Part shown: piece by piece, positions 1 through 64,000 of the stretch | Layout of the letters: the number at the start of each line of letters is the position of its first letter | Position numbering within the stretch: the first letter of the stretch is position 1 | Assembly (NCBI RefSeq): GCF_000355805.1 | Contig: NZ_CM001837.1 | Coordinates: 323,434 to 387,433 of the forward strand | Length of the DNA: 64,000 bases | Source of the DNA: Dokdonia sp. PRO95 | Lineage (GTDB): Bacteria; Bacteroidota; Bacteroidia; Flavobacteriales; Flavobacteriaceae | Direction: 5' to 3' | Made by a program: the position numbers and the translations under genes | Notes under the pieces: model-generated | Seen by the model: the letters and a program-made list of their open reading frames with translations, nothing else | Told to the model about the DNA's origin: nothing | The model's database searches: none

Positions 1-710
1 TACGCGAGCGCATAGATGAGGATCTTGACGCTCCAGAGATGTCAAAACGCAAGGTGCTTGCACTTGTCCTCAGGCTTATGGAAGAAACCCACATACGTAT
101 AGGTAACGACTACTACGCAAAGCGCAATAAAACCTACGGCCTCTCTACCTTACGCACCCGACACGTGACAACTACCAAGGAAAAAATCTGCTTTGAGTTT
201 GTGGGTAAAAAAGGCAAAAAGCACAACATCACCCTACGCAATAAGAAACTGGCAAAACTTGTAAACCGTTGTGAGGAAATACCTGGCTGGGAGTTATTCC
301 AATTTTATGATGCAAATGGCGAAAAGCACCGCGTAGATAGCACGATGGTAAACGATTACATACACGAGCTGAGTGGAGACTTATTTTCGGCAAAAGATTT
401 TAGAACTTGGGGAGCTACAAAAACTTTTTTTGAAACCGTGCACGACCTAGGCTACACAGAAGACGAAAAAGAAAACAAAGCAAACATACTCACCGCCTTT
501 GATGCCGCTGCAGAGGCTCTAGGTAACACACGCAATGTATGTCGCAAGTACTATGTGCATCCTCAAATAGTAGATGCCTATGAGTCTGGATCTATCGTCG
601 CTGAGTTTAAAAAGGTAGATGCTCATCAAGGAGCAAGGCCATTCTTTACAGAAACTGAGGAGGTATTACTGCAAATGATTTCAAAGTTTGAATTAGACTT
701 TAGTAAGTGA
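1..710 (+). CDS. Type IB DNA topoisomerase, C-terminal part (5' end outside window)
   Basis: Relaxes supercoiled DNA by transient single-strand cleavage through a 3'-phosphotyrosine. The frame is open from base 3 with no stop, so the ATG at 39 is internal and the gene begins upstream. The visible part is the catalytic domain: an RIGNDYYA stretch, a TLRTRHV stretch with catalytic basic residues, a KDFRTWGAT motif, and NVCRKYYVHP near the end, whose last tyrosine before VHP should be the nucleophile. This is the small poxvirus-like bacterial form. A palindrome copy and a terminator follow. The family call is firm; what the missing N-terminus holds is unknown. Confidence 0.9.
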   Translation, partial: RERIDEDLDAPEMSKRKVLALVLRLMEETHIRIGNDYYAKRNKTYGLSTLRTRHVTTTKEKICFEFVGKKGKKHNITLRNKKLAKLVNRCEEIPGWELFQFYDANGEKHRVDSTMVNDYIHELSGDLFSAKDFRTWGATKTFFETVHDLGYTEDEKENKANILTAFDAAAEALGNTRNVCRKYYVHPQIVDAYESGSIVAEFKKVDAHQGARPFFTETEEVLLQMISKFELDFSK

Positions 711-716
711 TATAAG

Positions 717-736
717 TACGCTTTCGCGAAAGCGTA
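717..736. repeat. Palindrome copy 1 (perfect 16-mer, intergenic)
   Basis: CGCTTTCGCGAAAGCG at 719-734, extended to a 20-base perfect palindrome by TA on each side. It lies directly after the topoisomerase stop and before the shared terminator. Confidence 0.95.
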
Positions 737-740
737 ACAC

Positions 741-780
741 AAAAAAAGCCCCTTCGTAACGAAAGGGCTTATTAATTTTT
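741..780. terminator. Bidirectional terminator between topoisomerase and purC
   Basis: An inverted repeat (arms 746-756 and 760-770, loop TAA) has an A-run on the left and a T-rich stretch on the right. The seventh pair is C:A on the plus transcript but a G:U wobble on the minus one. The hairpin followed by seven Ts fits purC best; plus-strand termination is weaker. Confidence 0.8.
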
Positions 781-794
781 AAGATGGTATGCTC

Positions 795-1742
795 TTATTT
801 TGCAAGGTATGCGAGCACGTTCTTCTCGATGCGCTCCTGAATATTTGAAGTATCTGCTTTCGCGAAAGCGTCACCTGTAATATTCTCGTACAATTCAATA
901 TATCTTTCTGATACAGTCTCTATGTACTCATCTGTCATCTCAGGCACTGTTTGCCCCTCTAGACCTTGAAAGTCATTTGAGATAAGCCACTGTCTCACAA
1001 ACTCTTTAGATAGTTGTTTTTGAGCTTCGCCAGCTGCTTGACGCTCCTCATAACCTTCGGCATAGAAGTAACGAGAAGAGTCTGGTGTATGTATCTCATC
1101 TATGAGAACAATCTCACCATCTGCTGTTTTTCCAAACTCATACTTGGTATCTACCAATATAAGTCCTCTAGATGCTGCTATCTCACTTCCTCTTTGAAAA
1201 AGCTTGCGTGTGTAATCTTCTAGCACGAGGTAATCCTCTTCTGAAACGATGTTCTTTTTAATAATATCCTCTCTTGAGATATCCTCATCGTGGTCACCCA
1301 TCTCTGCCTTAGTAGCTGGCGTGATGATAGGTTCTGGAAAGGCATCATTTTCTTTCATTCCTTCTGGCATTGCAACACCACAAAGTATTCTCCTACCAGC
1401 TTTATACTCTCTAGCCGCGTGCCCAGACATATAGCCACGTATTACCATCTCAACTTTAAAAGGCTCACATCGCTTCCCTATTGCCACATTAGGATCTGGC
1501 GTAGCCACGAGCCAGTTAGGCACGAGGTCTTCTGTATCCTTCATCATTTTAGTAGCAATCTGATTTAAGATTTGTCCTTTGAAAGGAATTCCTTTAGGCA
1601 TTACAACGTCAAAGGCGCTTAGCCTATCTGTTGCAATCATAAGTAATAAATCATCTTCGAGTGTGTAGACTTCTCTCACTTTACCCTTGTAGATAGATTT
1701 CTGACCAGGGAAGTTAAAATTAGTGTCTGTAATAGTGTTCAC
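795..1742 (-). CDS. purC: Phosphoribosylaminoimidazole-succinocarboxamide (SAICAR) synthase
   Basis: Joins aspartate to CAIR with ATP in de novo purine synthesis, in the cytoplasm. The 315-residue product is of the long type common in Bacteroidota. It opens with a GKVREVY stretch, followed by the [14 protein letters not shown] nucleotide-binding region, [13 protein letters not shown], and LVDTKYEFG...[12 protein letters not shown] in the second half. The start codon is GTG (1740-1742). Near the C-terminus a palindrome copy encodes DAFAKAD, so the repeat sits inside an essential gene at a tolerant tail position. It is monocistronic and ends at a good terminator. Confidence 0.97.
855..870. repeat. 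Palindrome copy 2 (15/16, inside purC)
   Basis: TGCTTTCGCGAAAGCG, one end base off the consensus. On the purC strand it is read as Ala-Phe-Ala-Lys-Ala. Confidence 0.92.
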
Positions 1743-1860
1743 TATAGGTTGGTTTGAACGGTTGTATTAATCCTTTTGAGGTATTAAAACAACACGATTA
1801 GTTATTCTTCAAAAGTAAAATTCTGAATGATATATTACGAATTAAAAGTATAGAAATATG

Positions 1861-3838: not shown

Positions 3839-4131
3839 TTGTAAGACTAGTAAAATTACGCTTTCGCGAAAGCGAGATACCCTCTTTTCTATCCAACTTT
3901 GAGAAAGTAAAAGAAAAAATTAGAGCGTCTAACGGGTGTATGTATCTAGAGCTACTACGTGGGGAAGATGACCCTTGTATTTTCTTTACTCACAGTCACT
4001 GGACTTCAGACGAAGCATTACAGAATTATCGAAACTCAGAACTTTTTAAAGGAATCTGGGCAGAGACGAAAACCAAGTTTAGCGCAAAGCCTGAGGCTTG
4101 GACAACTTCATCATTAGAAAAACTACTTTAG
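3835..4131 (+). CDS. Antibiotic biosynthesis monooxygenase (ABM)-like small protein
   Basis: A 98-residue ferredoxin-like fold protein of the ABM/YgiN type. It shows the alternating pattern of that family (VRLVKLRF...FLSNFEKVKEKIRASNGCMYLELLRG...FFTHSHWTSDEALQNYRNSELFKGIW). These proteins are often quinol monooxygenases, heme-degrading enzymes or just stress proteins, so the substrate is unknown. It is coupled to the SAM hydrolase by a four-base overlap. A perfect palindrome copy supplies residues LRFRESE near its start. It is convergent with the AraC gene, and the two coding regions overlap by four bases. Confidence 0.8.
   Translation: MIVRLVKLRFRESEIPSFLSNFEKVKEKIRASNGCMYLELLRGEDDPCIFFTHSHWTSDEALQNYRNSELFKGIWAETKTKFSAKPEAWTTSSLEKLL
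3859..3874. repeat. Palindrome copy 3 (perfect, inside ABM gene)
   Basis: Perfect CGCTTTCGCGAAAGCG, read as Arg-Phe-Arg-Glu-Ser within the first strand of the protein. Confidence 0.95.
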
Positions 4132-6253: not shown

Positions 6254-6604
6254 GTGGGCGTTTATTGTAATGAGAGTAGAACTCTCAATTCGATTGATTT
6301 AGTTTTTAAGTTTCCTTTCTAAGGAAGTCTGGAAAGGTAAGAATTGCCTTGCATTTGCGAAAGCGGAAATCCTCATTACAGTGTTAGATATTCGTTAATT
6401 AAAACTTAATATTTCTATAAAAAATTGAATTACAAGGATTAAAAAACCCGTTCAGTACAGCTGAACGGGTGTTAAACAAAATTACATATGTTGTTTAAAC
6501 AAGCATTTTGTAATTCATAGTATGTAATGATTTAAATTTTTCTCTTGTTTTAATTCATATTTTTTGAGCACATTATTATTTTTAAGCAAGGTATGCTCTT
6601 CATT
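6254..6604. other. 351-base gene-free stretch
   Basis: It holds the terminator of the signalling operon (6441-6470) and, at about 6351-6366, a decayed palindrome copy (GCATTTGCGAAAGCGG). It should also hold the promoter of the DUF3467 gene, although I find no convincing -7 box. I see no small coding region. Confidence 0.6.
6441..6470 (-). terminator. Terminator of the phytochrome signalling operon
   Basis: Perfect ten-base stem (6446-6455 with 6461-6470, ACCCGTTCAG), five-base loop, followed on the minus strand by six Ts. The stem closely resembles that of the rpoC terminator. Confidence 0.85.
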
Positions 6605-7152: not shown

Positions 7153-7560
7153 TTATTTATTTAACGTTAACCAATATTTGGCTATAACAGGAATTTGCTC
7201 CTTTAATTCGGCATAGTTCTTAGGCTTCTCTAGATAACTATTAGCTCCATAAATATAAGCCTTATCCTTATCAGTTTTTTGATCTGAGGAACTCATCATA
7301 ACAATAGGTGCATATTTAAAGACCTCTATTTTTCTTATTTCTTTCAATAAGTCTAAGCCACTTAGTTTAGGCATTTTTATGTCTAATAATATGAGATTCG
7401 GTGTAACTCCAACATCATCATATGCTTTAAACCAAGCTAAAGCCTTCAATGAATCATCAATAAAACAAATATCAACCAAGGGCATTTCTTTTTCAAAAAT
7501 ACGACCCATTAATGCACGGTCTGTAGCATTATCCTCTACAGAAATCACTAATCCTTTCAT
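7153..7560 (-). CDS. Single-domain response regulator, Rcp1-like
   Basis: A 135-residue stand-alone receiver. It has the acidic pair in VEDNATD, the phosphoacceptor Asp in LILLDIKMPKLSG, the switch Ser in VMMSSSDQ, and Lys-Pro in YLEKPKN. The acid run and the length match the Rcp1-type regulators that partner phytochrome kinases. The gene overlaps the end of the phytochrome gene by one base, which makes it the most likely phosphorylation partner. With no output domain it must pass its signal by binding other proteins. Confidence 0.94.
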   Translation of the reverse strand: MKGLVISVEDNATDRALMGRIFEKEMPLVDICFIDDSLKALAWFKAYDDVGVTPNLILLDIKMPKLSGLDLLKEIRKIEVFKYAPIVMMSSSDQKTDKDKAYIYGANSYLEKPKNYAELKEQIPVIAKYWLTLNK

Positions 7561-9767
7561 TATCTAGCGGGTAATTGAAAATAAAATGTAGCACCGTTAT
7601 CTACCTGACCCTCTGCCCAAATACGACCTTGATGCTTCTCTAATACTCGTTGAGAGATAGCAAGACCTATACCCGAACCTTCAAACTCGTCCTTTACAAG
7701 TCTATTAAACACTCCAAAAATTTTCTCACTATACTTATTATCAAAACCTATCCCATTATCCTTCACGTAATAAACTACAGGAGAGACACTGTTATCACAA
7801 CCTATTTCTATAATAGGTTTTTCTATAGTGTGAGAATACTTAAGAGCATTGCCTACAAGATTATTGAGCAACTGAAAAATCATAGCTCGATCTCCGTAAG
7901 CATCAGGTAATTTTGAGTCTATGATAAATTGAGCACTTTTATACTTTAGATCAACTTGTAAAAATGTAATTACTTCTTCTACTACCTCTTTCATAGAAAA
8001 AACTCCCATGGATATCTGATTTTTTCCTATCCCAGAAAAAGCCAAAATATCATCTATAAGCATGTTCATTTTACTTGTAGAGTCTATTATAGTTTGGATA
8101 GCTTTTTTACCATACTCATCAAGTGTTTCAAAGTAATCCTCTTTGATTATTTGTGCAAACCCATCTATACCACGTAAAGGAGATCTTAAATCATGAGAAA
8201 CGCTATAACTAAAAGATTCTAACTCCTTGTAAGCTTCTTTAAGTTTATCGTTAAGAAGTTTCACCTCTTGATATCTACTTATGATTATGTTAGAAATACT
8301 TGTTTTAAGCGCTTGCGCAGAAGCGATCTCATAATCTTTCCAAGGTAGGGAGGTATTTACCTGTTCCTGATTCCATTTTTCAAAAGATTTCCTTGGACTT
8401 AGCCCTTTCCCTTTTTCTTCTACTGCCTTTTCTGGATTTCCTCCCCAAGATATAAGTTGTTTGAGTTCTGGTTTAAACCACAGCAAGCAATCCTTTTCTC
8501 CCTTTGCTATAAAGACACAAAGTAATCCCGAGCCTATTTTGGCGAAAGCCGCCCCCTTGTCATACTCTTCTGCAATATTTTGAGTGGTATATATATCGCC
8601 CATCTGGGTGTCATATATCCAGTCTATAAGCGCTATAATTTCTTGTTTACTGGGAGTTTCTCCTACAGTTGACACATTATTTTCCAATAATACGGCTCCA
8701 CCTGATGCTTCGGTTATTGTGAGCATTGAGGTAGGCTTCTGGGTTAAGCCATTTGCTACATCCCATCCATCACTCATTTGCTCTACGAGCGTAGCTCTTA
8801 TTGCAGTAGTAGCGTTAATACGAGTAAGCACCTCATTTGAAGCCCTTAATGTGAGCTGCGTAGAAAATACTTGAGTTAAAAACTTAACTGTTTGTCTTTT
8901 ATAATAGTTTACAAACTTTGGACTATAATGATGACATGCTATTAAACCCCATAATTCTCCATCACTCACTATTGCCGCAGTGAGGGTCGCCCCTACCTTC
9001 ATATTCTGTAAATACTCTATGTGTATGGGAGACGATGCCCGAGACTCGCAAAGACCTAAATCTAATGGCTCGTCTTGCAAAGTGAGCTTTGCATAAACGG
9101 GAACCGTTTGTGATGCAACATCTGCTATGATACGCACACCTTGTTTTAAAAAAAGTTTACGTGCTTGCTGTGGTATATCTGTCGCAGGATAATGCATGCC
9201 TATCCAGCTATCAAGTTGTTCTTCACGAGCCTCAGATACAATCTTACCATTCCAGTTTTCATCAAATTTATAGATCATTACACGATCATAACCTGCAAAC
9301 TGTTTAATAAGCTGAGCCGTTTTATCACACATAGCCGAGACAGATACAGCTTCACTTAAGTCTGATATAATCTCGGATAACTGGCGCTGCATGAATTGAG
9401 CACTTTCTTGCTGCTCTATAGGCTCTAATTCTACATATACTAGTTGATTGTTGTGGTGAGTGACTACCACATAACGATTATCGTTAATAGTAACTTCAAG
9501 CGAGTTATTATCTCCGCTCTTGATATATGTTTCTATAAGCGTCCCATTTTCTCCTAGCACATCCTTAAGACGCTTAGAAAAAAAGTCTTCACGCTTTCGC
9601 GAAAGCGTAGAAATCACATTTTCAGATATATGTGATATCTCAAAAGATGGGTTATCTATCACAAAAAGCATCGCATGAGACTGTATGCGCCCTATAAGAT
9701 GGATTGGTTCCTTATCACAATTAGTTAGATCTATCTTTTTTGGGTATAAAGCAGATGGACTCCCCAT
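7560..9767 (-). CDS. bphP: Bacteriophytochrome histidine kinase
   Basis: A red/far-red light sensor kinase of 735 residues. Domain order: PAS (about 20-110) with Cys17 in the N-terminal tail at the position that binds biliverdin; GAF (about 135-300) with PATDIP at 194-199, a variant of PASDIP, and a histidine at about 280; PHY (about 310-490) with the PRKSF tongue motif at 458-462; then HisKA with His525 in SVSHDLRSP and an ATPase domain with NLVGNALKYS, DNGIGF and GSGIGLAI. There is no receiver, so signal output must go to the two regulators encoded just downstream. Two palindrome-related sites lie in it: a perfect one (LSRKR) and a decayed one (AFAKI). Confidence 0.96.
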   Translation of the reverse strand: MGSPSALYPKKIDLTNCDKEPIHLIGRIQSHAMLFVIDNPSFEISHISENVISTLSRKREDFFSKRLKDVLGENGTLIETYIKSGDNNSLEVTINDNRYVVVTHHNNQLVYVELEPIEQQESAQFMQRQLSEIISDLSEAVSVSAMCDKTAQLIKQFAGYDRVMIYKFDENWNGKIVSEAREEQLDSWIGMHYPATDIPQQARKLFLKQGVRIIADVASQTVPVYAKLTLQDEPLDLGLCESRASSPIHIEYLQNMKVGATLTAAIVSDGELWGLIACHHYSPKFVNYYKRQTVKFLTQVFSTQLTLRASNEVLTRINATTAIRATLVEQMSDGWDVANGLTQKPTSMLTITEASGGAVLLENNVSTVGETPSKQEIIALIDWIYDTQMGDIYTTQNIAEEYDKGAAFAKIGSGLLCVFIAKGEKDCLLWFKPELKQLISWGGNPEKAVEEKGKGLSPRKSFEKWNQEQVNTSLPWKDYEIASAQALKTSISNIIISRYQEVKLLNDKLKEAYKELESFSYSVSHDLRSPLRGIDGFAQIIKEDYFETLDEYGKKAIQTIIDSTSKMNMLIDDILAFSGIGKNQISMGVFSMKEVVEEVITFLQVDLKYKSAQFIIDSKLPDAYGDRAMIFQLLNNLVGNALKYSHTIEKPIIEIGCDNSVSPVVYYVKDNGIGFDNKYSEKIFGVFNRLVKDEFEGSGIGLAISQRVLEKHQGRIWAEGQVDNGATFYFQLPAR
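9592..9607. repeat. Palindrome copy 4 (perfect, inside bphP)
   Basis: Perfect 16-mer, read on the gene strand as Leu-Ser-Arg-Lys-Arg inside the PAS domain. A diverged relative, TTTTGGCGAAAGCC, lies at 8537-8550 in the same gene, read as Ala-Phe-Ala-Lys. Confidence 0.95.
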
Positions 9768-9774: not shown

Positions 9775-12700
9775 TTACTTTTTAATTTTAAAATAAAACG
9801 TACTTCCTACATTAACTTGAGAATCTACCCAAATTGATCCATCGTGAAGTTTTACAATTTTTTCACAATGGGCAAGGCCCACGCCCGTACCTTCATATTT
9901 ATGCTGAGTTGATGCTCGCCCAAAGATTTTAAATACTTGATCAAGATCTTCTTCGGCTATTCCTATACCGTTGTCATTAATCACAAAAGTCCAATATCCA
10001 TCATCTTCAAAGGATGAAATACGTACTACAGGACTCACATCTGGCTTTGAATATTTAAGAGAGTTCCCTATTAAGTTCTGGAACAACAATCTTAACTCTG
10101 TATTATATGCTTGGATAGTAGGCATTTTACTAAGATGTATTTTACCGCCACACTCTCTCAATCTTTTACCAAGATCATATTTTACAATTTCTAGTAATTC
10201 TTGCACGTTTACTTCTGTACGTTCTAGCTCTTGCCCTATGCGACTATGTTCAAGAAGTCCTTTGATTTGGTTTGCCATTCTACCTGCTGCACCATAAATG
10301 TACCCTAAGTATTCGGTGGCCTTAGGGTCTAGATCATCTCCAAATTTCTTAAGAATAACATCACTACTAAAGCGTATCGTTCCTAAAGGTTCTTGTAAAT
10401 CATGCGAGCATATAGATACAAACTGTTCTAAATCTGTATTAATGCGCTGTAGCTCTTCATTCTTATCATACATTAACTGCTGTGCATGCTGTAAGTCTGA
10501 GATATTAACTAAGGTAGAACGTGAGTACGAGTGACCTTCTTCTGGAATTACAAGCTCTGAGTTAAGGATAATAGGTATCTCGTTACCTTCTGTATCTACA
10601 AGGGTCATTTGCTCACCTTCTATCACTCCTGTTTTTTGAATTTCATCTAGAAGTCCAAGCCCTTTAGCCTTAGAATCATCTGTATAAAAATCAAATATAC
10701 GCCTGCCTACAACCTCACTACGAGAATTTAAGCCTATTGTATCAATGAAAATTTTATTACACTCTACGATACGTCCTGTAGAAGGATCAACACTTACGTG
10801 CATCACAGGATCATTCTCATAAAAGTCTTTAAACTTCTGCTGGCTTTCTTTTAATTTCTTTTGTGAATCGACCGTTTTTGTAATGTCTACAAAGGTGATT
10901 ACAGAACCCTCTATTTTATTTGATCCTGTATAAAATGGAGAAATACGTCTTATATATGAGCGCCCACCTTTTTTATTAATTTGTGTTTCATTTACCTCTC
11001 CTGTGCTCATCACTGTTTCAATCTTACTTCTAAGTGATGATTTTTTACCAGTACCTAACTGGATCAAGAAGTGATCTATAGGTCTCCCTATATCTTGCTT
11101 CATTAACTTAAAATGTTCTTGTATAGAAGGTGTAAATTTTCTAATAGTAAGTTGTCTATCTAGAAAGATTGTTGCTATTTGAGTACTGTTAAGAATATTA
11201 TCCATGTCTGCATTAAGTAATGCTAGATCATCCATTTTTTCAATATGCTCTACATTCACGGTGTGCAGCTCCTCATTTACACTCTGTAGTTCCTCATTTG
11301 TACTTTGCAACTCCTCATTTGATGCTAGCAACTCTTCATTGAGCGTTTGTAATTCTTCATTACTAGTCTCTGCATCTTCCAGTGCTTTTTTAAGCTCTCC
11401 CCTTGTTTCCTCTATCTCGTCTATAAGATCTTTAATGCGTTCATCTGGAGCTACTGCAAGATTCATTGTACCACGAGCTATGGCTGCATCAGGATTTAAT
11501 TCCTTTTCAATAAACGTAATTACGTAATTACAATCATCAGCGTTATTTTGAAAAATGGGTTTTACTAGCACATTTACAACAGTATCTGCTCCTGCTTTTG
11601 TAGTAATAACATCATTGTAAATGAAGTCTTTTTTGGAACGTTTTGCTTTTCTTGCCGCCGAGTTTACAGCTGTTTTTAAATTATCAGGAAGCATCTTTAG
11701 TAAGTCTAAAGAAAAACCGCTTTCAGGTAATTGTGCATATTTTGAAAAAGAACCCAATGCATCTAGTACTTTAAAATCTGCATCCACATACACACTTGCA
11801 GTATCAAATTGAGACAAAAGCGCATTGCTGATACTCATTTTAACGTCACTAGTAAATGTTTCTTTCTTTTGAATCACTGTCTTTTTCTGCTTTCGCGAAA
11901 GCATAACATTACTCTTATCTGCATTTGAGGTAAGTAACTCACTATGCATTCTTTCTGATGGATGGATGTTCTTAAAAATTTTAAGCTTAGCATTTATTGT
12001 CTCAAAGGAGTTACGCAAGGCAGTTATAGACTCACTTGATCCTAGAAATAAAAATCCATTAAGTTTTAGTGCATAATGTAATGTATGCAATACCGCAGTT
12101 TGCACCTCTGGCTTTAAATAAATTAAAAGATTACGGCATGACACCATATCCATATTTTTAAATGGAGGATCTTTTAAAATATCATGATTTGAAAAAATTA
12201 TTTTCTTTCTAAGGTCTTTATCTATTTTAAACTCTTTTCCATCTTTAATAAAGAACTTCTGTAATTTACTGGGAGAAACACTCTGAACAATAGTATTATT
12301 AAAGACTCCTTGAGATGCTAGTGCAATATGCTCTTCAGAAATATCTGTTGCAAAGATTTTGAGTTTGATATCCTTCTCTTGACGATCTATTTCTTCTTGA
12401 AAGAGGATTGCTAGTGAGTATGCTTCTTCTCCGGTGGAGCAAGCCACATCCCACACTTTTATTGTATCTCCATCTCTTTTATTTCTTACAATACTAGGTA
12501 TAGTCTCAGCCTCCAATAAATTCCAAGCGTTTGTATCTCTAAAAAATTTTGTAACTCCAATTAAAAACTCCTTGTACAACACAGAAACCTCTTCTGGATG
12601 AATTTTTAAATATGCGATGTACTGATCAAAATTCCCCATTTTGAGGTTTTGCATACGTCTTTCTGTACGTCTCAGAATTGTAGGGCGCTTATAATAATTG

Positions 12701-13842: not shown

Positions 13843-13858
13843 CGCTTTCGCGAAAGCA
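13843..13858. repeat. Palindrome copy 6 (15/16, intergenic)
   Basis: CGCTTTCGCGAAAGCA, some 80 bases beyond the rpoC terminator in the long gene-free stretch. Confidence 0.92.
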
Positions 13859-18369: not shown

Positions 18370-18385
18370 CGCTTTCGCGAAAGCG
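18370..18385. repeat. Palindrome copy 7 (perfect, rpoB-rpoC spacer)
   Basis: Perfect 16-mer in the 96-base spacer between rpoB and rpoC, which is otherwise short. It will be transcribed in the rpoBC mRNA and can form a hairpin there. Confidence 0.95.
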
Positions 18386-25589: not shown

Positions 25590-25708
25590 ATACTTTAAGT
25601 TTTGAATCTCAAATTTCAAAAGCGAAATTATCGTTATTATTCAAAAACTTAGGATTTCAAAAGCAACGCTCTCGCGAAAACTAAACAGAACCCCTCTTAA
25701 CAAAAGTC

Positions 25709-27151: not shown

Positions 27152-27167
27152 CGCTTTCGCGAAAGCT
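27152..27167. repeat. Palindrome copy 8 (15/16, between tRNA genes)
   Basis: CGCTTTCGCGAAAGCT in the 49-base spacer between the tRNA-Gly and tRNA-Thr(GGT) genes, so it lies inside a tRNA precursor transcript. Confidence 0.92.
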
Positions 27168-34714: not shown

Positions 34715-34730
34715 CGCTTTCGCGAAAGCG
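34715..34730. repeat. Palindrome copy 10 (perfect, intergenic)
   Basis: Perfect 16-mer, extended by TA at the right and by TTA on the left, 36 bases beyond the recQ stop. Confidence 0.95.
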
Positions 34731-38880: not shown

Positions 38881-38906
38881 TTTTACGCTTTCGCGAAAGC
38901 GTAAAA
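38881..38906. repeat. Palindrome copy 11 (26-base perfect palindrome)
   Basis: The perfect 16-mer at 38886-38901 with five more matching bases on each side (TTTTA...TAAAA): the longest perfect copy here. It lies between tatC and the AhpD-like gene and has Ts on its left and As inside its right arm. Confidence 0.95.
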
Positions 38907-43563: not shown

Positions 43564-43585
43564 TTACGCTTTCGCGAAAGCGTAA
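43564..43585. repeat. Palindrome copy 12 (perfect, in folE leader)
   Basis: Perfect 16-mer at 43567-43582, extended to 22 bases by TTA/TAA. It lies between the candidate folE promoter and its start codon, so it may be in the 5' leader. Confidence 0.95.
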
Positions 43586-44414: not shown

Positions 44415-45899
44415 ATGCCTTTATACCAAGATCAAGAACTCACAGTTTACAATTCGCTTTCTGGAAAGAAAGAAATCTTCACACCTCTACTCGAGGGTTA
44501 TGTAGGTATGTATGTGTGCGGTCCTACGGTATATAGTAATGTACACTTAGGTAATGTGCGCACCTTTATGAGTTTTGATATGATATTTAGGTATCTCAAA
44601 CACTTAGGTTATAAAGTGCGCTATGTGCGTAATATTACAGATGCTGGTCACCTCACAGATGATGCAGATCAAGGAGAGGATAAGATTGCAAAAAAAGCAA
44701 GACTAGAGCAAATTGAGCCTATGGAAGTTGTACAGAAGTACACGCTAGACTTTCACGACATTCTCAATAAATTTAATTTCTTACCTCCTAGTATAGAACC
44801 TACAGCTACAGGTCACATCATAGAGCAAATAGAAATAATCAAAAAGATTATAGACAACGGGTATGCTTATGAGAAAAATGGCTCTGTATACTTTGATGTA
44901 ATAAAATTTAATGAAGACCACGAGTATGGTAAACTTTCTGGCCGCAAGCTAGAAGATATGATTACAAACACTCGTGCCCTTAGTGCACAAGATGAGAAGA
45001 ACAATCCTCAAGATTTTGCACTTTGGAAAAAAGCAGAACCTGAGCACATAATGCGCTGGCCTAGCCCGTGGGGTGATGGCTTCCCAGGGTGGCACCTAGA
45101 GTGTACTGCAATGAGTACAAAATATCTAGGAGAACAGTTTGATATACACGGTGGTGGTATGGATCTTAAGTTTCCTCATCACGAGTGTGAGATTGCTCAA
45201 AATGAAGCTGCAATAGGTACAGAGCCTGTAAAGTACTGGCTACACGCAAATATGCTCACCCTTAACGGCCAGAAAATGGCAAAGAGTACTGGTAACAGTA
45301 TCAACCCAGGTGAGATTTTTACAGGAGACAGTACTCACTTAACAAAGGGATTTGCCCCTAGCGTTGCAAGGTTTTTTATCTTACAGAGTAGCTACCGCAG
45401 CATTATGGACTTCTCAAATGACGCATTACTAGCGAGTGAAAAAGGTTTTAACAGACTAATGGAAGCGCTCAAAATTGCAAAAAATCTAGACACATCTAAA
45501 GAAAGTAGCTTTAATGTAAACGACTGGAAGGCGTCTTGCTACGCCGCGATGAATGACGATTTTAACACTCCGATACTCATTGCACATCTTTTTGATGCAG
45601 TAAAGCAAATACACCTTATTAAAGACGGAAAAGCAACTATCACTGCAAGTGATCTTAAGTTATTACTTGAGACGATTAATGCTTTCGTTTTTGACGTACT
45701 TGGACTTGAAGACAATAACGCTTTCGCGAAAGCGGACGACTCAAAATTAAGTGGCACCGTAGAGTTACTTATAAAACTTCGTAAAGAAGCACGTGAAAAC
45801 AAAGATTTTGCACTAAGTGACAAAATACGAGATGAACTTATAGAGCTAGGTATCCAGCTCAAAGATGGTCGTGAGGGAACTACCTTTACTGTAAACTAA
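44415..45899 (+). CDS. cysS: Cysteinyl-tRNA synthetase
   Basis: Charges tRNA-Cys. The 494-residue class I enzyme has [19 protein letters not shown] (HIGH region), zinc ligands in the WHLECTAMS and [11 protein letters not shown] segments, and KMAKSTGNS (KMSKS form). A palindrome copy encodes [11 protein letters not shown] in the C-terminal helical part, away from the active site. Its stop TAA overlaps the ATG of yidD by one base. Confidence 0.98.
45719..45734. repeat. Palindrome copy 13 (perfect, inside cysS)
   Basis: Perfect 16-mer, read as Ala-Phe-Ala-Lys-Ala. A partial relative, GCTTTCG, lies 40 bases before it. Confidence 0.95.
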
Positions 45900-50709: not shown

Positions 50710-50807
50710 AACTTATTTGTACTTTTTTTCCTGTTTCTTCAAGTGATTTTCACTTTTCTTTACTTCTACTCTTTTTTAAGCACTACGCAAGTACTAGAAT
50801 AGCACTT

Positions 50808-50819
50808 TTTCGCGAAAGC
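50808..50819. repeat. Palindrome copy 14 (partial, intergenic)
   Basis: TTTCGCGAAAGC, with the left end worn away (ACTTTTTCGCGAAAGCA). It lies between the rpmB promoter and the cinA stop. Confidence 0.75.
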
Positions 50820-50837
50820 ATACTTTTAATATAATTT

Positions 50838-53915: not shown

Positions 53916-54386
53916 ATGAAAAATAAACTTTTACTGTTAGCCTTTTTAATTTTCGCTTTCGCGAAAATGGGAACCGCACAAAACTCTCCTTTCACCACAG
54001 ATGATGTCTCTGGTGTTTATAGTAAGGGGGTTGACACCACCTCAGAGAACGCTAAATTTGATACAAGTACAAAATTCACAAAATCAATTACCTTAGCACC
54101 CAACGGCAGATTTGAGTATCACAATTTTAGACAACTTAAAGGTCAAGAAGAAGAGCACTGGTGGGCACGCGGTAACTGGAAACTTGAGGGTAAAGTTGTT
54201 GTTTTTACAACTACCGAAGATGATATAAACGATCAATTTACAATTGATTTAAACAATACAAGAGCGCGCTTCTTTAAGAAGTCTCCTCGCAATAAATCGC
54301 CTAAAATTCAGCCTACATATATTCAGTTTTTCGAATCTGACTACTCACTCACTAAGAATTTAAAACTCCCTAAAACAGATGAATAG
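53916..54386 (+). CDS. Hypothetical exported protein
   Basis: A 156-residue product not recognised. The start is set at 53916 (MKNKLLLLAFLIFAFAKMGTAQ), giving a proper signal peptide ending in the Bacteroidota-style AQ; the longer frame to 53871 adds a poor N-terminus. The mature part is beta-rich with a lipocalin-like look (ITLAPNGRFEYHNFRQLKGQEEEHWWARGNWKLEGKVVVFTT). A partial palindrome encodes FAFAKM in the signal peptide. Overlaps the next gene by eight bases. Confidence 0.7.
   Translation: MKNKLLLLAFLIFAFAKMGTAQNSPFTTDDVSGVYSKGVDTTSENAKFDTSTKFTKSITLAPNGRFEYHNFRQLKGQEEEHWWARGNWKLEGKVVVFTTTEDDINDQFTIDLNNTRARFFKKSPRNKSPKIQPTYIQFFESDYSLTKNLKLPKTDE
53954..53966. repeat. Palindrome copy 15 (partial, in signal peptide)
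   Basis: CGCTTTCGCGAAA, with the right end changed. Read as Ala-Phe-Ala-Lys at the end of the hydrophobic core of the signal peptide. Confidence 0.85.
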
Positions 54387-55038
54387 ATTACAACTATTAT
54401 TTTTTATAGCCTTGGTGTCAGGGTTTCAATTTTTCGCGAAAGCGCAACAAAACAACACACCTCCTGTCGAATTGATAGAAGATAAACAAGCCAAAAGATG
54501 GTTACTCTATGCTCAAAACAACACAGATGAAGAGCAAGAGGCTTTCCTAATCGTGCAGGGAGAAGGCTTTAGAAGAAGCGCAGATAGGCCTGTGATAAAA
54601 AAACTTCCTCCTAACTCAAAAGTCCTCATGATTACGCTTATCCCTCTCAAAGGAGTAGAGCCCACCTACACTAAGATTTTTACTTATGAGAACGAATTAC
54701 AAGACATCTCTACCAGAAAAGGAGCAGACAAAGAGGAGTTTGTAAACATAAGACCCCTAAAGGATGATGAACTCACCATATTTACAGAGCCAGATTGCGA
54801 GAAATGTAAGTTGCTCACAGATTTTTTAAATAAAAATCATTACAAATACCGTGTGCTGGATGTAAGCACTAACAACAAGGTGAATGACTTTATGTTTGAT
54901 CATCTCAAAAACTCAAGCTATAAAGGAGGGATTATAGATTTACCAGTAGTAATGTTTGAAGGAAGAAAGCACTGGAGCATTGTAGATATTAAAAACTTCA
55001 TACGTGAGTACGACTGGAAAGGATTAAAAAAGAACTGA
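54379..55038 (+). CDS. Exported protein with glutaredoxin/thioredoxin-like domain
   Basis: A 219-residue exported protein: signal peptide NRLQLLFFIALVSGFQFFAKAQ, a beta-rich N-terminal half, and a C-terminal glutaredoxin-like domain (about 130-215) with the redox motif CEKC in TIFTEPDCEKCKLLTDFLNKNHYKYRVLDV and the cis-Pro region GGIIDLPVVMFEGRKHW. It probably acts as a periplasmic thiol protein. The 8-base overlap with the preceding gene indicates coupling. A partial palindrome encodes FFAKA at the signal peptide end. Confidence 0.78.
   Translation: MNRLQLLFFIALVSGFQFFAKAQQNNTPPVELIEDKQAKRWLLYAQNNTDEEQEAFLIVQGEGFRRSADRPVIKKLPPNSKVLMITLIPLKGVEPTYTKIFTYENELQDISTRKGADKEEFVNIRPLKDDELTIFTEPDCEKCKLLTDFLNKNHYKYRVLDVSTNNKVNDFMFDHLKNSSYKGGIIDLPVVMFEGRKHWSIVDIKNFIREYDWKGLKKN
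54432..54444. repeat. Palindrome copy 16 (partial, in signal peptide)
   Basis: TTTCGCGAAAGCG, left end changed. Read as Phe-Ala-Lys-Ala just before the cleavage site, as in the preceding gene. Confidence 0.85.
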
Positions 55039-56519: not shown

Positions 56520-57650
56520 TTAATCTCTATTAAACTCAATCACATCGCCCTTCCCTAGACTACTATTACTGCCTATTGCAAAAGTACCATTTTTAGGAAT
56601 GATTTTATAGGTAGCACCACTACCTCGATATGTTATAATTTCCTTAATTATGTCACTATACGCCACATATGCCGCATCAAAAACAAGCTCTTGCCCTTCC
56701 TTAGGAACACACATATCACTGATAACTGTTACAGGTTTTGTTACCGCTTTCGCGAAAGCGTCACTCAAAAATGTATTATCTGTAAGCAGCACATATTCTT
56801 TTACGATACTCTCGCTATCAACCAGGTGAGACTGTAAATACTTTTTATAAAACCCAGCCTTAAACTTTGCTAAGCTCACACCAACATTTACAAGAACACC
56901 TTTGAACACATTATCGCCAAAGTGCTTTTTATAAAACAATTGCATCGCTCCATAAAAACACTTTCTATAATGCTCATCCCTTACTGTGCTCTCTCCTTTA
57001 AAATGTAGTATCGCCTCATCGCCTACGTAGTAATTGCCATAACCAGCCTTTGTTATGGTGTAAGACAAGTCTATATCTTCACCGAACATAAAATAGCGTT
57101 CATCAAAGCCCCCTACTTCTTTGTAGAGTTTGCAAGACATAAACATAAATGCCCCCACTAGAATAGAAACCTCACCCCTAGCATCACTAGCTATATGAGT
57201 GGCATAATAAGAAGATCCGTAACCCATCATCTTACTTAATGCAACTTTGAGAGTAGGAACATTGCGTTTACTTTCTGGTAGATAAACTCCTCTTCCATTT
57301 ACAAGACGCACTCCTTGTGCTCCTTTATATTGATCTGAAGCTATTTCTAACAAACATGTAAACACACTTGAAGGCACCACCGTATCAGGGTTAAGAATAC
57401 ATATATGAGTTCCTTGCGCTATGTCAACCCCTTGATTATTTGCAGATGAAAAGCCAACATTATTGTCATTGGCAATAATCTTTACCTCAGGAAACTTCTC
57501 CTTGACCATTTGCACACTTCCATCTACAGAGGCATTATCAACCACTATAATCTCTGCATCAATTAAAGCTACAGCTTCCTGTACACTGTCTAGGCATAAC
57601 TCTAGATAGTGCATGACATTATAACTTACAATGATTATGGATAGTTCCAA
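56520..57650 (-). CDS. Family 2 glycosyltransferase
   Basis: A 376-residue GT-A enzyme for cell-surface polysaccharide or O-antigen work. It has LSIIIVSYNVMHYLELCLDSV, VVDNASVDGSVQMV, NDNNVGFSSANNQG and NPDTVVP in the nucleotide-sugar part, and GAFMFMSCKLYKEVGGFDERYFMFGEDIDLSYTI in the acceptor region, typical of rhamnosyl-like transferases. The C-terminal 90 residues are extra and not recognised. The start is TTG (57648-57650). A palindrome copy encodes DAFAKAVTK in the C-terminal part. Confidence 0.9.
   Translation of the reverse strand: MELSIIIVSYNVMHYLELCLDSVQEAVALIDAEIIVVDNASVDGSVQMVKEKFPEVKIIANDNNVGFSSANNQGVDIAQGTHICILNPDTVVPSSVFTCLLEIASDQYKGAQGVRLVNGRGVYLPESKRNVPTLKVALSKMMGYGSSYYATHIASDARGEVSILVGAFMFMSCKLYKEVGGFDERYFMFGEDIDLSYTITKAGYGNYYVGDEAILHFKGESTVRDEHYRKCFYGAMQLFYKKHFGDNVFKGVLVNVGVSLAKFKAGFYKKYLQSHLVDSESIVKEYVLLTDNTFLSDAFAKAVTKPVTVISDMCVPKEGQELVFDAAYVAYSDIIKEIITYRGSGATYKIIPKNGTFAIGSNSSLGKGDVIEFNRD
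56745..56760. repeat. Palindrome copy 17 (perfect, inside glycosyltransferase gene)
   Basis: Perfect 16-mer, read as Asp-Ala-Phe-Ala-Lys-Ala on the gene strand. Confidence 0.95.
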
Positions 57651-59197: not shown

Positions 59198-60157
59198 ATG
59201 CTTAAAGCTGGCGTACTAGGTGCTGGACACTTAGGAAAAATACACTTAAAACTTCTTAAACTTTCTGAACACTACGATCTTGTAGGGTTTTATGACACCT
59301 CAAAAGAGGTTAGAGATGCCATCTCTCAAGAATTTGGCTACACTGCTTTTGAGACCGAAGAAGATTTAATCAACGCCTGTGATATGGTAGATGTAGTGAC
59401 CCCTACTACCTTCCACTATGCAAGTGCCGAAAAAGTAATCAAAGCTGGCAAGCATCTCTTTATTGAGAAACCAATAACAACTACCGTTGATGAGGCAGAA
59501 AAACTACTCACACTTGCAAAAGAACACAACGTTCTAGGGCAAGTAGGTCATGTAGAGCGCTTCAATCCGGCATTTATGTCTGTGAGTCACTCCATAAAAA
59601 GCCCAATGTTTATCGAGGCACATAGACTTGCAGAATTTAATCCTAGAGGAACCGATGTACCTGTGGTATTAGACTTAATGATACATGACATTGATGCAAT
59701 ACTAAGTGTTGTAAATAGCCCTGTTAAAAGTGTAAACGCAAGTGGTGTATCTGTTATATCAGAAACTCCAGATATTGCAAATGCCCGTATTGAGTTTGAA
59801 AACGGATGCGTCGCAAACCTTACCGCGAGTCGTATCTCTATGAAAAACATGCGCAAAGCACGTTTCTTTCAGAAGGACGCATACATTTCGGTAGATTTTC
59901 TTGAGAAAAAAGTAGAGGTTGTAAAGATGAAAGATGCTCCAGAATCTCCAGATGATTTTGCAATGATTCTTCAGAATGCAGAAGGAATCAAGAAGCAAAT
60001 TTATTTTGACAACCCAGATGTACCTAGTAATAACGCGATACTTGATGAGCTAGACGCTTTCGCGAAAGCAATAAAAGGAAACACTACCCCAATCGTATCA
60101 TTGAAGGCTGGAACCGAAGCTTTACGAGTAGCAAAAATGATTATTGCAGATTTTTAA
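59198..60157 (+). CDS. Gfo/Idh/MocA family oxidoreductase
   Basis: A 319-residue NAD(P)-dependent enzyme with the Rossmann GVLGAGHLGKIHLKLL motif, EKP in LFIEKPITTT and an HDID motif in LMIHDIDAIL. Substrates of this family are sugars, inositols or biliverdin. The lack of a sugar cluster leaves it open. A palindrome copy encodes DAFAKAIKG near the end. First of a plus-strand run of genes. Confidence 0.92.
   Translation: MLKAGVLGAGHLGKIHLKLLKLSEHYDLVGFYDTSKEVRDAISQEFGYTAFETEEDLINACDMVDVVTPTTFHYASAEKVIKAGKHLFIEKPITTTVDEAEKLLTLAKEHNVLGQVGHVERFNPAFMSVSHSIKSPMFIEAHRLAEFNPRGTDVPVVLDLMIHDIDAILSVVNSPVKSVNASGVSVISETPDIANARIEFENGCVANLTASRISMKNMRKARFFQKDAYISVDFLEKKVEVVKMKDAPESPDDFAMILQNAEGIKKQIYFDNPDVPSNNAILDELDAFAKAIKGNTTPIVSLKAGTEALRVAKMIIADF
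60055..60070. repeat. Palindrome copy 18 (15/16, inside oxidoreductase gene)
   Basis: CGCTTTCGCGAAAGCA, read as Asp-Ala-Phe-Ala-Lys-Ala-Ile, in the C-terminal part. Confidence 0.92.
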
Positions 60158-60214
60158 AACACAAATTCAAACACACAAATCCTTAAAAGAGGAAACACAC
60201 TAAGCACTTCACTT

Positions 60215-61105: not shown

Positions 61106-61130
61106 TCTCAAAAAGACTCATAACTTGATA

Positions 61131-61152: not shown

Positions 61153-61165
61153 AACTACACATAAC

Positions 61166-62386
61166 ATGGCAAAAATTCTCCCATTCCGTGCGGTAAGACC
61201 TACTAGAGACAAAGTAGGGCTGGTTGCTACACGCGCCTACCAATTTTATGATCAAGTAGGACGCGACCACAGAATGGCACAAAATCCGTTCTCATTCTTA
61301 CACATTATCAACCCAGGTTATAAATTTCAAAAAGAAATCACTGGGAAACAACGTTTTGAACTAGTGCGCAATCGCTATCAAGAATTTAAAGATGATGGTG
61401 TCTTTGTTAAGGAAGAGCAACCTGCATTTTATGTATATAGAATTGTAGATAGAGAAAAGAATACCTTTTGTGGTATTGTAGCTAGCGCTTCTGTAGAAGA
61501 CTATGAGAAGGATATTATAAAAAAACACGAAGACACGCTAGAAGACCGCGAGACTCTTTTTACAGAATACCTAGACACTGTAGGCTTTAATGCAGAAGCT
61601 GTATTGCTCACTTATAAAAACTCTGATGAGATTGAGAGCATTCTTAACAATGCAATGAGTGATCGCGCCGAGTATGAATTTACAACCACTTATCGCGACA
61701 CACATTACTTATGGCCAGTAACAGACACGGCGACTATAGAAAAGCTGCAACATGCTTTTGCTAGCATGGATAGTCTCTACATTGCAGATGGCCATCATAG
61801 ATCTTCTTCCTCTGCCTTACTTTCTAAAAAACACATTAAAGATCAAGAAAGCTATCATTCATTCATGAGTTTCCTCATACCGGAATCGGAGTTACTCATT
61901 TATGAATTCAATAGACTTATAAAGGATCTTAACGGCCTGAGTAAAGAAGCTTTTTTAATAGCACTAGACAGCAAGTTTAGAATTGAGAATCGCGGCACCA
62001 CTCCTTATAAACCATCAAAGAAACATCACTTTAACATGTATCTAGATGGTGAGTATTACAGCCTCTACTTAAGACATAGCTTGCGCACTTTTGACACTCC
62101 GCTAGATAGACTAGACACTCACATATTATATGAAACGGTACTTAAACCTATTTTAGGAATTATAGACTTGAGAAATGATGACCGCATAGTATATGTAGAT
62201 GGAAGGCGTGATATCTCTAGCTTAACAGATCGTATAGATAGTAAAGAATATGCAGTGAGCTTTGGTATGCTCCCAGTAACTATCAATGAGCTAAAAGAAA
62301 TAGCAGACGCTGGATTAAAAATGCCACCAAAAAGTACGTATATTGAACCTAAACTACGCAGCGGCGTAACCATTTACGAATTTTAA
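61166..62386 (+). CDS. DUF1015 family protein
   Basis: A 406-residue conserved protein, widespread in bacteria; some DUF1015 proteins are annotated as SerB-like or kinase-like, but no firm role is known to me. The start has LPFRAVRPTRDKV, then the conserved FSFLHIINPGY, QPAFYVYRIVD, YIADGHHRSSSS and MPPKSTYIEPKLRSG. It is coupled to yggS by a one-base TAATG overlap. Confidence 0.88.
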   Translation: MAKILPFRAVRPTRDKVGLVATRAYQFYDQVGRDHRMAQNPFSFLHIINPGYKFQKEITGKQRFELVRNRYQEFKDDGVFVKEEQPAFYVYRIVDREKNTFCGIVASASVEDYEKDIIKKHEDTLEDRETLFTEYLDTVGFNAEAVLLTYKNSDEIESILNNAMSDRAEYEFTTTYRDTHYLWPVTDTATIEKLQHAFASMDSLYIADGHHRSSSSALLSKKHIKDQESYHSFMSFLIPESELLIYEFNRLIKDLNGLSKEAFLIALDSKFRIENRGTTPYKPSKKHHFNMYLDGEYYSLYLRHSLRTFDTPLDRLDTHILYETVLKPILGIIDLRNDDRIVYVDGRRDISSLTDRIDSKEYAVSFGMLPVTINELKEIADAGLKMPPKSTYIEPKLRSGVTIYEF

Positions 62387-63033
62387 TGAGTATAGCAGAA
62401 AATATCTTACGCTTTCGCGAAAACATTCCTTCACATGTTACTCTTGTAGCTGTTTCAAAAACAAAACCTGTTTCAGACCTTATGGAGGCGTATGAAACTG
62501 GCCAACGCATTTTTGGAGAGAATAAGATTCAAGAAATGACAGACAAGTGGGAAGAAATGCCCAAAGATATACAGTGGCACATGATAGGTCACGTTCAAAC
62601 CAATAAAGTAAAATTTATGGCTCCATACGTGAGCCTTATACATGCTGTAGATCGTTTAAAACTTATAAAAGAAGTAAACAAACAAGCAGCAGCAAATAAC
62701 CGAGTAATTGATATTCTTATTCAGATTAAGATTGCTCGTGAAGATTCAAAATTTGGTATGGCAGTACAGGATGCGGTCAAGCTTTTTGAAGAAAACACAT
62801 TAGATAATTATCCGCATGTAAATGTTGTTGGACTGATGGGAATGGCAACTTTTACAGATAACCAAGATCAAATTGCAGCAGAGTTTGAGTTGCTAGAAGG
62901 ATTATTTTTACGCTTTCGCGAAAGCGCAAATCTCACCATACTATCCTCAGGAATGAGTGGTGATTATAAACTCGCAATTGACAAAGGGAGCACTATGATT
63001 AGAGTAGGAAGCAGTATTTTTGGTGCTAGATAA
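62386..63033 (+). CDS. yggS: YggS family pyridoxal phosphate homeostasis protein
   Basis: A 215-residue PLP-binding protein of the alanine-racemase barrel fold, thought to balance B6 vitamers. It has VAVSKTKPVSDLMEAYETGQRIFGENKIQEM (PLP-Lys in the first segment), WHMIGHVQTNKVK, and LSSGMSGDYKLAIDKGSTMIRVGSSIFG. It holds two palindrome copies in the same frame (LRFREN, LRFRES), one at each end. Confidence 0.95.
   Translation: MSIAENILRFRENIPSHVTLVAVSKTKPVSDLMEAYETGQRIFGENKIQEMTDKWEEMPKDIQWHMIGHVQTNKVKFMAPYVSLIHAVDRLKLIKEVNKQAAANNRVIDILIQIKIAREDSKFGMAVQDAVKLFEENTLDNYPHVNVVGLMGMATFTDNQDQIAAEFELLEGLFLRFRESANLTILSSGMSGDYKLAIDKGSTMIRVGSSIFGAR
62410..62422. repeat. Palindrome copy 19 (partial, inside yggS)
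   Basis: CGCTTTCGCGAAA, with the right end changed. Read as Arg-Phe-Arg-Glu-Asn near the start of YggS. Confidence 0.85.
62911..62926. repeat. Palindrome copy 20 (perfect, inside yggS)
   Basis: Perfect 16-mer, read as Leu-Arg-Phe-Arg-Glu-Ser, 501 bases after copy 19 and in the same reading frame. Confidence 0.95.
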
Positions 63034-63102
63034 CTTTAATTACTCTGACTTATATTTAAAATAACGTGATTCCCTAAAAACTGGAATTTTAAAAAATAGC
63101 AT

Positions 63103-64000
63103 ATTTACGCAATACTAGACATAGAAACCACTGGCGGTAAGTACAACGAAGAAGGTATAACAGAAATCGCCATATATAAATTTGACGGACATCAAGTTGT
63201 AGACCAATTTATCACTCTCGTAAATCCAGAACGCCCCATACAAGCATTTGTAGTAGGACTTACTGGCATTAACAACGGGATGTTAAAAGATGCTCCAAAG
63301 TTTCATGAAATAGCAAAGCGTATTATTGAAATTACTGAGGGATGTATTATTGTGGCTCATAATGCCCAGTTTGACTATCGCATTTTAAGTCTAGAGTTTG
63401 ACAGACTCGGATATCCGTTTGAAAGAACAACGCTATGCTCTGTAGAGCTCTCACAAGAGTTGCTCCCAGGTCATGATAGCTATAGCCTAGGCAAGTTAAC
63501 GAAGGCACTAGGAATCGCGATGTCTAACAGACATAGAGCAGATGGAGATGCTATTGCCACAGTAAAGCTTTTTAAGCTACTCCTAGAAAAAGATTCAGAA
63601 AAGACAATTATAACCAAGGCCATACGCTCTTTCCCAAAAAAGCATATGGATACCAAACTCAAGGACCTCATAAGAAGCGTTCCTTCTGAGACTGGTGTGT
63701 ACTTTATGCATAATGTAAATGGAACCATCATTTACATAGGCAAAAGTAAAAACATGAAAAAACGCCTTACGCAACATTTTACTAATGATAATCGTAAGAG
63801 TAAGCAAATACAAGATCAGGTAGAAACGGTTACTTACCAGACTACAGGTACTGAGCTCATTGCACTTCTAAAGGAAAATGAAGAAATAAAACGCAACAAG
63901 CCAAAGTTTAATAGAGCCTTACGTAGAACTAAATTTAAGGTACAACTCACTCACTATACAGACAGTGAAGGCTATATACACCTTAAGACTGAAAGAGCAG
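63103..64000 (+). CDS. DEDDh exonuclease fused to GIY-YIG nuclease (3' end outside window), apparent ATT start
   Basis: An exonuclease of the DNA polymerase III epsilon type joined to a UvrC-like GIY-YIG domain; such fusions are common in Bacteroidota and related to Cho/UvrC repair. The frame reads YAILDIETTGGKYNEEG (first Asp/Glu), VAHNAQFDYRIL, HRADGDA (His and last Asp), then from about residue 200 SETGVYFMHN...IYIGKSKNMKKRLTQHF. An in-frame TAG lies at 63097-63099, and the only plausible start before the catalytic motif is ATT at 63103. The first in-frame ATG lies past the motif. The window cuts the gene within its second half. Confidence 0.85.
   Translation, partial: MYAILDIETTGGKYNEEGITEIAIYKFDGHQVVDQFITLVNPERPIQAFVVGLTGINNGMLKDAPKFHEIAKRIIEITEGCIIVAHNAQFDYRILSLEFDRLGYPFERTTLCSVELSQELLPGHDSYSLGKLTKALGIAMSNRHRADGDAIATVKLFKLLLEKDSEKTIITKAIRSFPKKHMDTKLKDLIRSVPSETGVYFMHNVNGTIIYIGKSKNMKKRLTQHFTNDNRKSKQIQDQVETVTYQTTGTELIALLKENEEIKRNKPKFNRALRRTKFKVQLTHYTDSEGYIHLKTERA

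Follow-up and report, generated by a model that had tools for sequence, protein, structure and literature searches.

A genome-wide palindrome with strand-biased flanks in Dokdonia looks like a DNA signal without a name so far

A 16-base palindrome recurs hundreds of times along the chromosome of Dokdonia sp. PRO95 (genome G000, one contig of 3,305,093 bases). It was noticed in a stretch of 64,000 nucleotides (contig NZ_CM001837.1, positions 323,434 to 387,433), which we call the window and within which all positions below are counted. We refer to the full palindrome as the 16-mer, to GCTTTCGCGAAAGC as its 14-base core and to TTTCGCGAAA as its 10-base core. The palindrome is abundant, evenly spaced and conserved, reaches high copy numbers in few genera, is indifferent to gene orientation, has about 15 compositionally biased bases on each side, and within genes has arisen by substitution. 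It looks like a DNA signal that has so far gone without a name. By analogy with the DNA uptake sequences (DUS) of Neisseriaceae and the uptake signal sequences (USS) of Pasteurellaceae, we tentatively propose that it may mark self-DNA.

Results

Abundance in the window and on the chromosome

The preliminary description of the window had counted 11 perfect 16-mers, 5 copies reduced to GCTTTCGCGAAAGC and 4 worn copies retaining only TTTCGCGAAA, and our own count agreed with it to the base. These 20 copies of TTTCGCGAAA compare with 0.11 expected from 100 dinucleotide-preserving shuffles, none of which held more than 2, so that the earlier estimate of well under one chance copy per 64 kb was sound. 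When up to three mismatches were allowed, the 16-mer was found at 24 places, with 0.07 expected. The GC content of the window is 37.1%. The whole chromosome carries 577 exact 16-mers and 816 copies of the 12-base core, and the reversed-letter control (for the 16-mer a palindrome too) had no copy in either case. Since each of 20 evenly placed 20-kb stretches of G000 contained 4–8 copies of TTTCGCGAAA, no sampled part of the chromosome was empty or enriched.

The copies are also strict. A sample of 444 kb of G000 yielded 80 exact 16-mers and 26, 18, 27 and 19 copies with one, two, three and four mismatches, respectively; 80 of the 151 copies with at most three mismatches were thus letter-perfect over 16 bases, and in 22 of the 26 one-mismatch copies the altered base was the outermost. 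About 30 control palindromes searched on 200 kb gave no match with two mismatches or fewer and 17 in total with three.

Taxonomic range

The genome-wide signal envisaged in the preliminary description extends across the genus: counts elsewhere are not near chance, nor are the copies confined to the window, and each of 18 genomes of the genus carries 138–711 exact 16-mers. Any exact copy was present in 48 of 397 genomes of the family, and copies numbered in the hundreds in only six, namely two from the Dokdonia genus group (g1), all three of g11 (495, 579 and 448 copies), which is probably Nonlabens, and the single g191 genome (153). The other 42 held 1–13 each. The 12-mer matched 63 of 239 family genomes, with 816, 917, 586 and 445 copies in G000, G003, G027 and G207, respectively, and no more than 19 in any of the remaining 59; across the phylum, 11 of 395 genomes matched, these being G000 and ten with one or two copies. 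The only named Nonlabens locus, from N. ulvanivorans (L100), held two exact copies and four cores in 21 kb, hence the probable assignment of g11 to this genus.

Among 80 named cysS loci the core occurred in nine, seven from Dokdonia, one from Nonlabens (four cores) and one from Algibacter (one core), and was missing from all seven Leeuwenhoekiella loci. CysS of the window itself is 100% identical, over its best-matching segment, to that of 'Uncultured Dokdonia sp. isolate 3-709'. No alternative 'dialect' was seen in Leeuwenhoekiella, Maribacter, Salinimicrobium or others at the one orthologous locus compared, where shared tRNA-like letters dominate. The rpoB tree places g191 as the sister of Dokdonia (98/97), and a single clade of g11, Dokdonia and g191 was not rejected (p = 0.50 for rpoB, p = 0.23 for cysS). 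As a separate observation, the g191 loci L114–L118 contain other frequent words such as CATTGATCACTA, GTTACCGTGA and GTATAGGTGA, which perhaps belong to a dispersed repeat.

A symmetric element of about 50 bases

Flank composition was profiled over 140 sites, symmetrised, after sites close to the ends of stretches had been dropped. From -20 to -5 ahead of the 10-base core, C made up 5–9%, G 22–26% and T 36–45% of the bases, against a background of 19% C and 19% G at 200–300 bases from the core, and beyond -25 the bias was nearly gone. About 15 bases per side are affected, C-poor on the 5' side and G-poor on the 3' side of either strand, and apart from a preference for TTA the bias is not bound to fixed positions. 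Of 104 copies with the 14-base core, 55 had TTA before the 16-mer, TAA after it, or both; the full 22-base form TTACGCTTTCGCGAAAGCGTAA, a perfect 16-mer with both, was rare (8 of 104). The earlier remark that the copies have no constant neighbour must be qualified on both counts, since TTA and TAA are favoured beside the 16-mer and the flanks are strongly biased by strand. The element exceeds the palindrome: with its flanks it is symmetric and about 50 bases long.

The bias was similar around 50 genic and 56 intergenic copies (one was dropped at an edge). For the genic copies, the 5' flank contained 6.9% C (coding background 17.3%) and the 3' flank 8.6% G (background 20.8%), an equal bias on both sides. 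Samples from other Dokdonia and from g11/Nonlabens, with few sites per group, also showed it.

The letters of the 16-mer can form a six-pair hairpin. Folding does not account for the flank bias, and a hairpin extended through pairing flanks was ruled out: pairing between flanks did not exceed the marginal, composition-based expectation over the 140 sites, and the flanks added no stability (mean -11.07 with true and -10.93 with shuffled flanks). Hairpin formation in RNA was 0.70 with the true flanks, 0.61–0.63 with control flanks and 0.56 with random genomic flanks.

Placement and spacing

Genes were called by a simple longest-ORF (open reading frame) rule, so the limits between gene and spacer classes are approximate. 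Copies of the 12-base core lay both within genes (50 of 107) and outside ORFs (57 of 107), and the non-ORF part made up 11% of the sampled sequence. The preliminary description was right that genes and spacers both carry copies, but to call them alike plays down this bias toward spacers. Density was alike in spacers between co-directional (30 copies per 27.8 kb), divergent (15 per 11.2 kb) and convergent genes (10 per 7.5 kb). This indifference to orientation, together with the equal 5' and 3' bias in genes, favours reading at the level of DNA and not RNA.

Spacing is even. The 122 gaps between cores in 444 kb of G000 had a coefficient of variation of 0.61, compared with a mean of 0.97 under a null model in which as many sites were scattered randomly, each staying in its gene or spacer class, and none of 3000 such placements was as low; gaps shorter than 1 kb made up 12%, where 32% were expected. 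Counts in 19 stretches had a variance-to-mean ratio of 0.21 (Poisson p = 0.00015), L011 having been omitted from the spacing counts because it overlaps the window. Pairs of 14-base cores 18–48 bases apart occurred in none of 18 genomes, and we found no arrays that could have pointed to the gene of the reader. Site-free gaps were considered as foreign DNA, a reading that we rejected; the largest among the G001 matches listed contains two giant ORFs of 13–15 kb. On a side note, this genome (L242, L243) has two copies each of a 653-aa and a 318-aa ORF, both times next to a giant ORF (4431 or 5060 amino acids).

Conservation and origin of the copies

Palindrome copies are conserved far above chance. 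In G007, which is 79% identical over mapped bases, cores were intact at 7 of 12 genic and 5 of 8 intergenic sites, compared with 11.6% and 16.1% of random 10-mers; in G001 the figures were 11 of 12 and 6 of 8, compared with 23.7% and 25.3%. The copies in the window were compared with five relatives, among them G001, G004, G006, G007 and G016, as listed here together with three relics whose cores are intact in relatives.

719..734, perfect 16-mer, intergenic; core also in G004, G006 and G016
855..870, 14-base core, within purC (795-1742, minus strand)
3859..3874, perfect 16-mer, within ORF 3835-4131; core in all five relatives
9592..9607, perfect 16-mer, within ORF 7560-9767; core in all five
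11888..11903, 14-base core, within ORF 9775-13377; core in all five
13843..13858, 14-base core, intergenic; G004 the sole relative sharing the core
18370..18385, perfect 16-mer, rpoB-rpoC spacer
27152..27167, 14-base core, intergenic; core in all five
31269..31284, perfect 16-mer, within ORF 30703-31584; core in all five
34715..34730, perfect 16-mer, intergenic; core in all five; compared with L029, flank letters changed and C-poor/G-poor composition retained
38886..38901, perfect 16-mer, intergenic; core in all five
43567..43582, perfect 16-mer, intergenic; core in four of five, the G007 copy lying instead about 740 bases away (44311)
45719..45734, perfect 16-mer, inside a variable stretch of cysS, encoding AFAKA; same length as in Leeuwenhoekiella
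50805..50820, worn copy, intergenic
53954..53969, worn copy, in an apparent signal peptide (judged by eye)
54429..54444, worn copy, in an apparent signal peptide (judged by eye); orthologue alignment gapped here
56745..56760, perfect 16-mer, within ORF 56520-57650; core in G004 and G006
60055..60070, 14-base core, within ORF 59198-60157; core in all five
62410..62425, worn copy, within ORF 62386-63033; core in four of five
62911..62926, perfect 16-mer, within ORF 62386-63033; core in all five
6350..6365, three-mismatch relic; core intact in G006
25667..25682, three-mismatch relic; core intact in G001, G004, G006 and G016
30526..30541, three-mismatch relic; core intact in G001, G004, G006 and G016

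An apparent signal peptide containing the palindrome is also seen in an outer-membrane efflux protein of other genera (SAFAKAQ).

In recQ (36225), a KpsF/GutQ-family gene (37477), cysS (45722) and cinA (51915), presence and absence of the palindrome differ by substitution with no change in length. Leeuwenhoekiella CysS, for example, has VNAVAEAN aligned without gaps to NNAFAKAD of Dokdonia; in several more distant genera, the alignment has short gaps, from one to a few residues long, near the palindrome. A mobile palindrome, one of the roles offered in the preliminary description, is contradicted for genic copies by these orthologues. Alignments at the copy at 54432 and at the spacer copies contain gaps, and insertion of some spacer copies is possible. 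The core in the rpoB-rpoC spacer was present in all ten palindrome-rich genomes, which span three genera, and in none of 20 others. Several palindrome-less Flavobacteriaceae show, by eye, a different hairpin in this spacer (L208–L237), which suggests a need for structure there.

Substitutions in the flanks were analysed in seven genome pairs, overlapping and hence not independent, with the bases 25–45 away as reference. Flank identity was about the same as the reference in genes and slightly lower in spacers in 7/7 pairs. C/T differences were fewer in the flanks and A/G differences more frequent, again in all seven. A plain hotspot of C deamination was rejected as the cause of the bias, since it is fewer, not more, C/T differences that were found. 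The pattern speaks for avoidance of C in the flanks; the A/G differences and the divergence of spacer flanks could reflect a mutational share in the bias.

Copies in other genera and in phages

Six palindrome-poor genomes were inspected (G095, G104, G118, G231, G325 and G353; loci L120, L121 and L123–L127). Most of their copies lie in ORFs for RND-type efflux, outer-membrane efflux, CusB-like, heavy-metal P-type ATPase or FUR-family proteins (Pfam, six ORFs), the exceptions being one copy in L125, not far from a gene for an amino-acid permease, and another in L121 that falls in none of the listed ORFs. Spacings between copies recur from genome to genome (933 and 2446–2481 bases). A metal-efflux gene set bearing the palindrome, made up of an RND pump, an outer-membrane factor, a CusB-like protein and a heavy-metal ATPase, is common to several flavobacterial genera that are otherwise nearly without it. 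Copies in these genera are probably passengers that mark DNA from palindrome-rich lineages. They retain the flank bias while totals stay at 1–13 exact copies per genome, and for this reason the element seems not to amplify on its own once in a foreign genome.

Two phages of a Nonlabens-type host, which as close relatives count as one observation, had no copy with three mismatches or fewer in 71 kb. Among 2.9 million viral contigs (IMG/VR), 41 stretches held an exact copy; the ORF tested from L134 and the two from L136 matched no family.

Candidate machinery

Nine of the ten palindrome-rich genomes encode one ParB_N protein and G002 encodes two, compared with one to three in 20 others. The second ParB_N protein of G002, a 616-aa frame, resembles one in G118, a genome with four exact copies only. 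Without an excess of ParB_N proteins, and with no empty or enriched region in the 20 stretches, a ParB/Noc-type version of the nucleoid or segregation site put forward in the preliminary description is disfavoured. ComEC was found in all ten palindrome-rich genomes and in 19 of 20 others; being present in 29 of 30, it does not discriminate. T2SSE (PF00437) exceeded the cut-off in three of the ten palindrome-rich genomes (G002, G007 and G258) and in none of ten others.

Discussion

We tentatively read the palindrome as a self-DNA signal, for uptake or recombination, that would work like DUS and USS, and we rank this above a chromosome-organising site, which follows close behind. An uptake signal was among the roles suggested in the preliminary description. 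In this view the palindrome would form the centre of a symmetric recognition element, about 50 bp long and apparently read as DNA, which comprises the strict 14–16-base palindrome, the TTA/TAA preference and about 15 bases that avoid C on the entering strand and G on the leaving strand. Genic sites would come and go by substitution at tolerant places and not by insertion, and either selection or biased transfer would maintain the sites. Site-bearing DNA of Dokdonia, of the g191 genus and probably of Nonlabens would be favoured in uptake or recombination, a bias that would push the sites toward consensus and even cover. Uptake or recombination as the process, and the existence of one reader protein, are what we infer. 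In favour of this reading we count the over-representation, the genic origin by substitution, the mismatch classes, the even spacing without close pairs, the indifference to orientation and the lack of copies in the two phages of a Nonlabens-type host. A more doubtful extension is that the signal, abundant in only a few marine flavobacterial genera, has flanks that are a strand code, little C in and little G out, in place of fixed letters; the reading machine would sense the composition of single strands on both sides of a break or grip point, in a self-DNA system of these Bacteroidota independent of type IV pili.

Several observations weigh against a self-DNA signal. Pilus-driven uptake would need a T2SSE-type ATPase, and in seven of the ten palindrome-rich genomes, G000 included, no T2SSE match passed the cut-off; uptake there would have to manage without one. 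The core is palindromic and the flank bias is alike on both sides, unlike directional uptake signals. In g191 the flank bias is weak, in a sample with few sites per group. Two viral contigs carry the site, one of 37 kb (L149, L166, L169) with six copies and matches to terminase, portal and tail sheath, the other (L132) with two copies and a terminase match; since terminase-bearing contigs carry it, phages can bear the site. A search of mostly non-subscription literature on transformation and uptake sequences in this group found nothing relevant. Finally, the regularity and the constraint on individual positions (in G007, at 79% identity, 12 of 20 cores are intact) would fit a structural role inside the cell as well.

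Such a structural role is the first alternative. An abundant nucleoid-associated protein could anchor the DNA about every 3 kb, with direct selection on each site. The even spacing, with 4–8 cores in each of 20 stretches, and the strong positional conservation are what this would give; the dyad symmetry suits a dimer, and there are no close pairs. Binding sites of nucleoid-associated proteins are usually less strict than 16 letter-perfect bases, and here more than half of the copies (80 of 151) are perfect; nine of the ten palindrome-rich genomes moreover have no extra ParB_N protein, and the phyletic range is patchy. We consider this explanation possible if somewhat doubtful.

A recombination or repair signal with a role like that of Chi is unlikely, though it has attractions. 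A keto-rich strand ending at the palindrome would suit strand exchange following a break, and biased conversion would keep the sites. Beyond TTA, the flank bias is one of strand composition over a fixed 15-base span and not of fixed letters, and the flanks show fewer C/T differences in 7/7 pairs. Chi sites are known as short sequences with a direction, whereas this site is a palindrome, and the excess of A/G differences in the same seven pairs could make part of the bias mutational.

A mark associated with methylation or repair, as in HIP1, is in our judgement improbable. High copy number, perfect palindromy and the lack of genic mobility would agree with it; methyltransferase sites, however, are usually far shorter than this 14–16-base consensus with its flanks, and would have no need of the flanks. 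An RNA hairpin acting as terminator, processing site or mRNA stabiliser is very unlikely. The six-pair fold, the higher hairpin formation with true flanks (0.70 versus 0.61–0.63 in the control) and the different hairpin seen by eye in the rpoB-rpoC spacer of palindrome-less genera speak for it, but 50 of 107 copies are genic, spacer orientation matters little and the flanks add nothing to the hairpin. An intrinsic terminator was rejected on the first two of these grounds and because only two of the seven copies in the first 20 kb were listed as terminator-like. A mobile palindrome akin to REP/BIME or RPE elements would explain high copy number in several genera, but scarcely merits belief given substitution instead of insertion in genes and totals of only 1–13 where the palindrome arrived with the metal-efflux set.

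Should the element prove to be an uptake or recombination signal, it would hint at a route by which ocean bacteria transfer genes within their group without pili; an architectural site would instead suggest a new nucleoid protein. In both cases, a copy in another genus is a tag for DNA of probable origin in these lineages, the metal-efflux set being an example, and a flank code without fixed letters is unusual in itself and can be tested.

The preliminary description knew of no named system for this palindrome, and the literature searched, mostly without subscription journals, likewise holds no description, which is weak evidence of novelty. The letters of the 16-mer gave no match (most subscription journals lay outside the search), matches to the letters of TTTCGCGAAA included none about this bacterial group, and searches of mostly non-subscription literature for iterated or over-represented palindromes, a Dokdonia/Nonlabens palindrome and Bacteroidetes uptake sequences returned nothing relevant. 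No comparable signal was found described for Bacteroidota in this literature. To our knowledge, well-studied genome-wide DNA signals at such copy number are few: DUS/USS, Chi and HIP1.

REP/BIME palindromes occur in many copies and are rich in spacers, as is the present element, which differs in showing no sign of insertion in genes. Sites bound by Noc and parS are palindromes with TTTC...GAAA arms; ours has such arms, but in hundreds of evenly spread copies and with no general excess of ParB-family proteins. HIP1 of cyanobacteria (GCGATCGC) is likewise a genome-wide abundant palindrome, also according to excerpts of PMC1939737; the present word is a different one, has 14–16 bases where HIP1 has 8–10, carries a flank code and belongs to Flavobacteriaceae.

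The closest comparison is with DUS and USS. According to the same excerpts, these arise by point mutation and are in excess in non-coding DNA; Karlin et al., as cited there, found them evenly spaced and concluded that they may serve replication, repair or compaction. The excerpted text argues against such intracellular roles, among other reasons because DUS/USS are less even than a compaction signal would be (PMC1939737). Our palindrome resembles them in the strong genome-wide over-representation of a word of 9–12 or more bases, in its spread by point mutation (four genic copies), in an excess in spacers that still leaves many genic copies, in even spacing and in near-perfect copies. It departs from them in its palindromic, non-directional core, its symmetric C-poor and G-poor flanks, its Bacteroidota host and the missing T2SSE match in seven of ten palindrome-rich genomes, G000 among them; for this last reason we do not file it as a member of DUS/USS, and our tentative reading is that it works like one.

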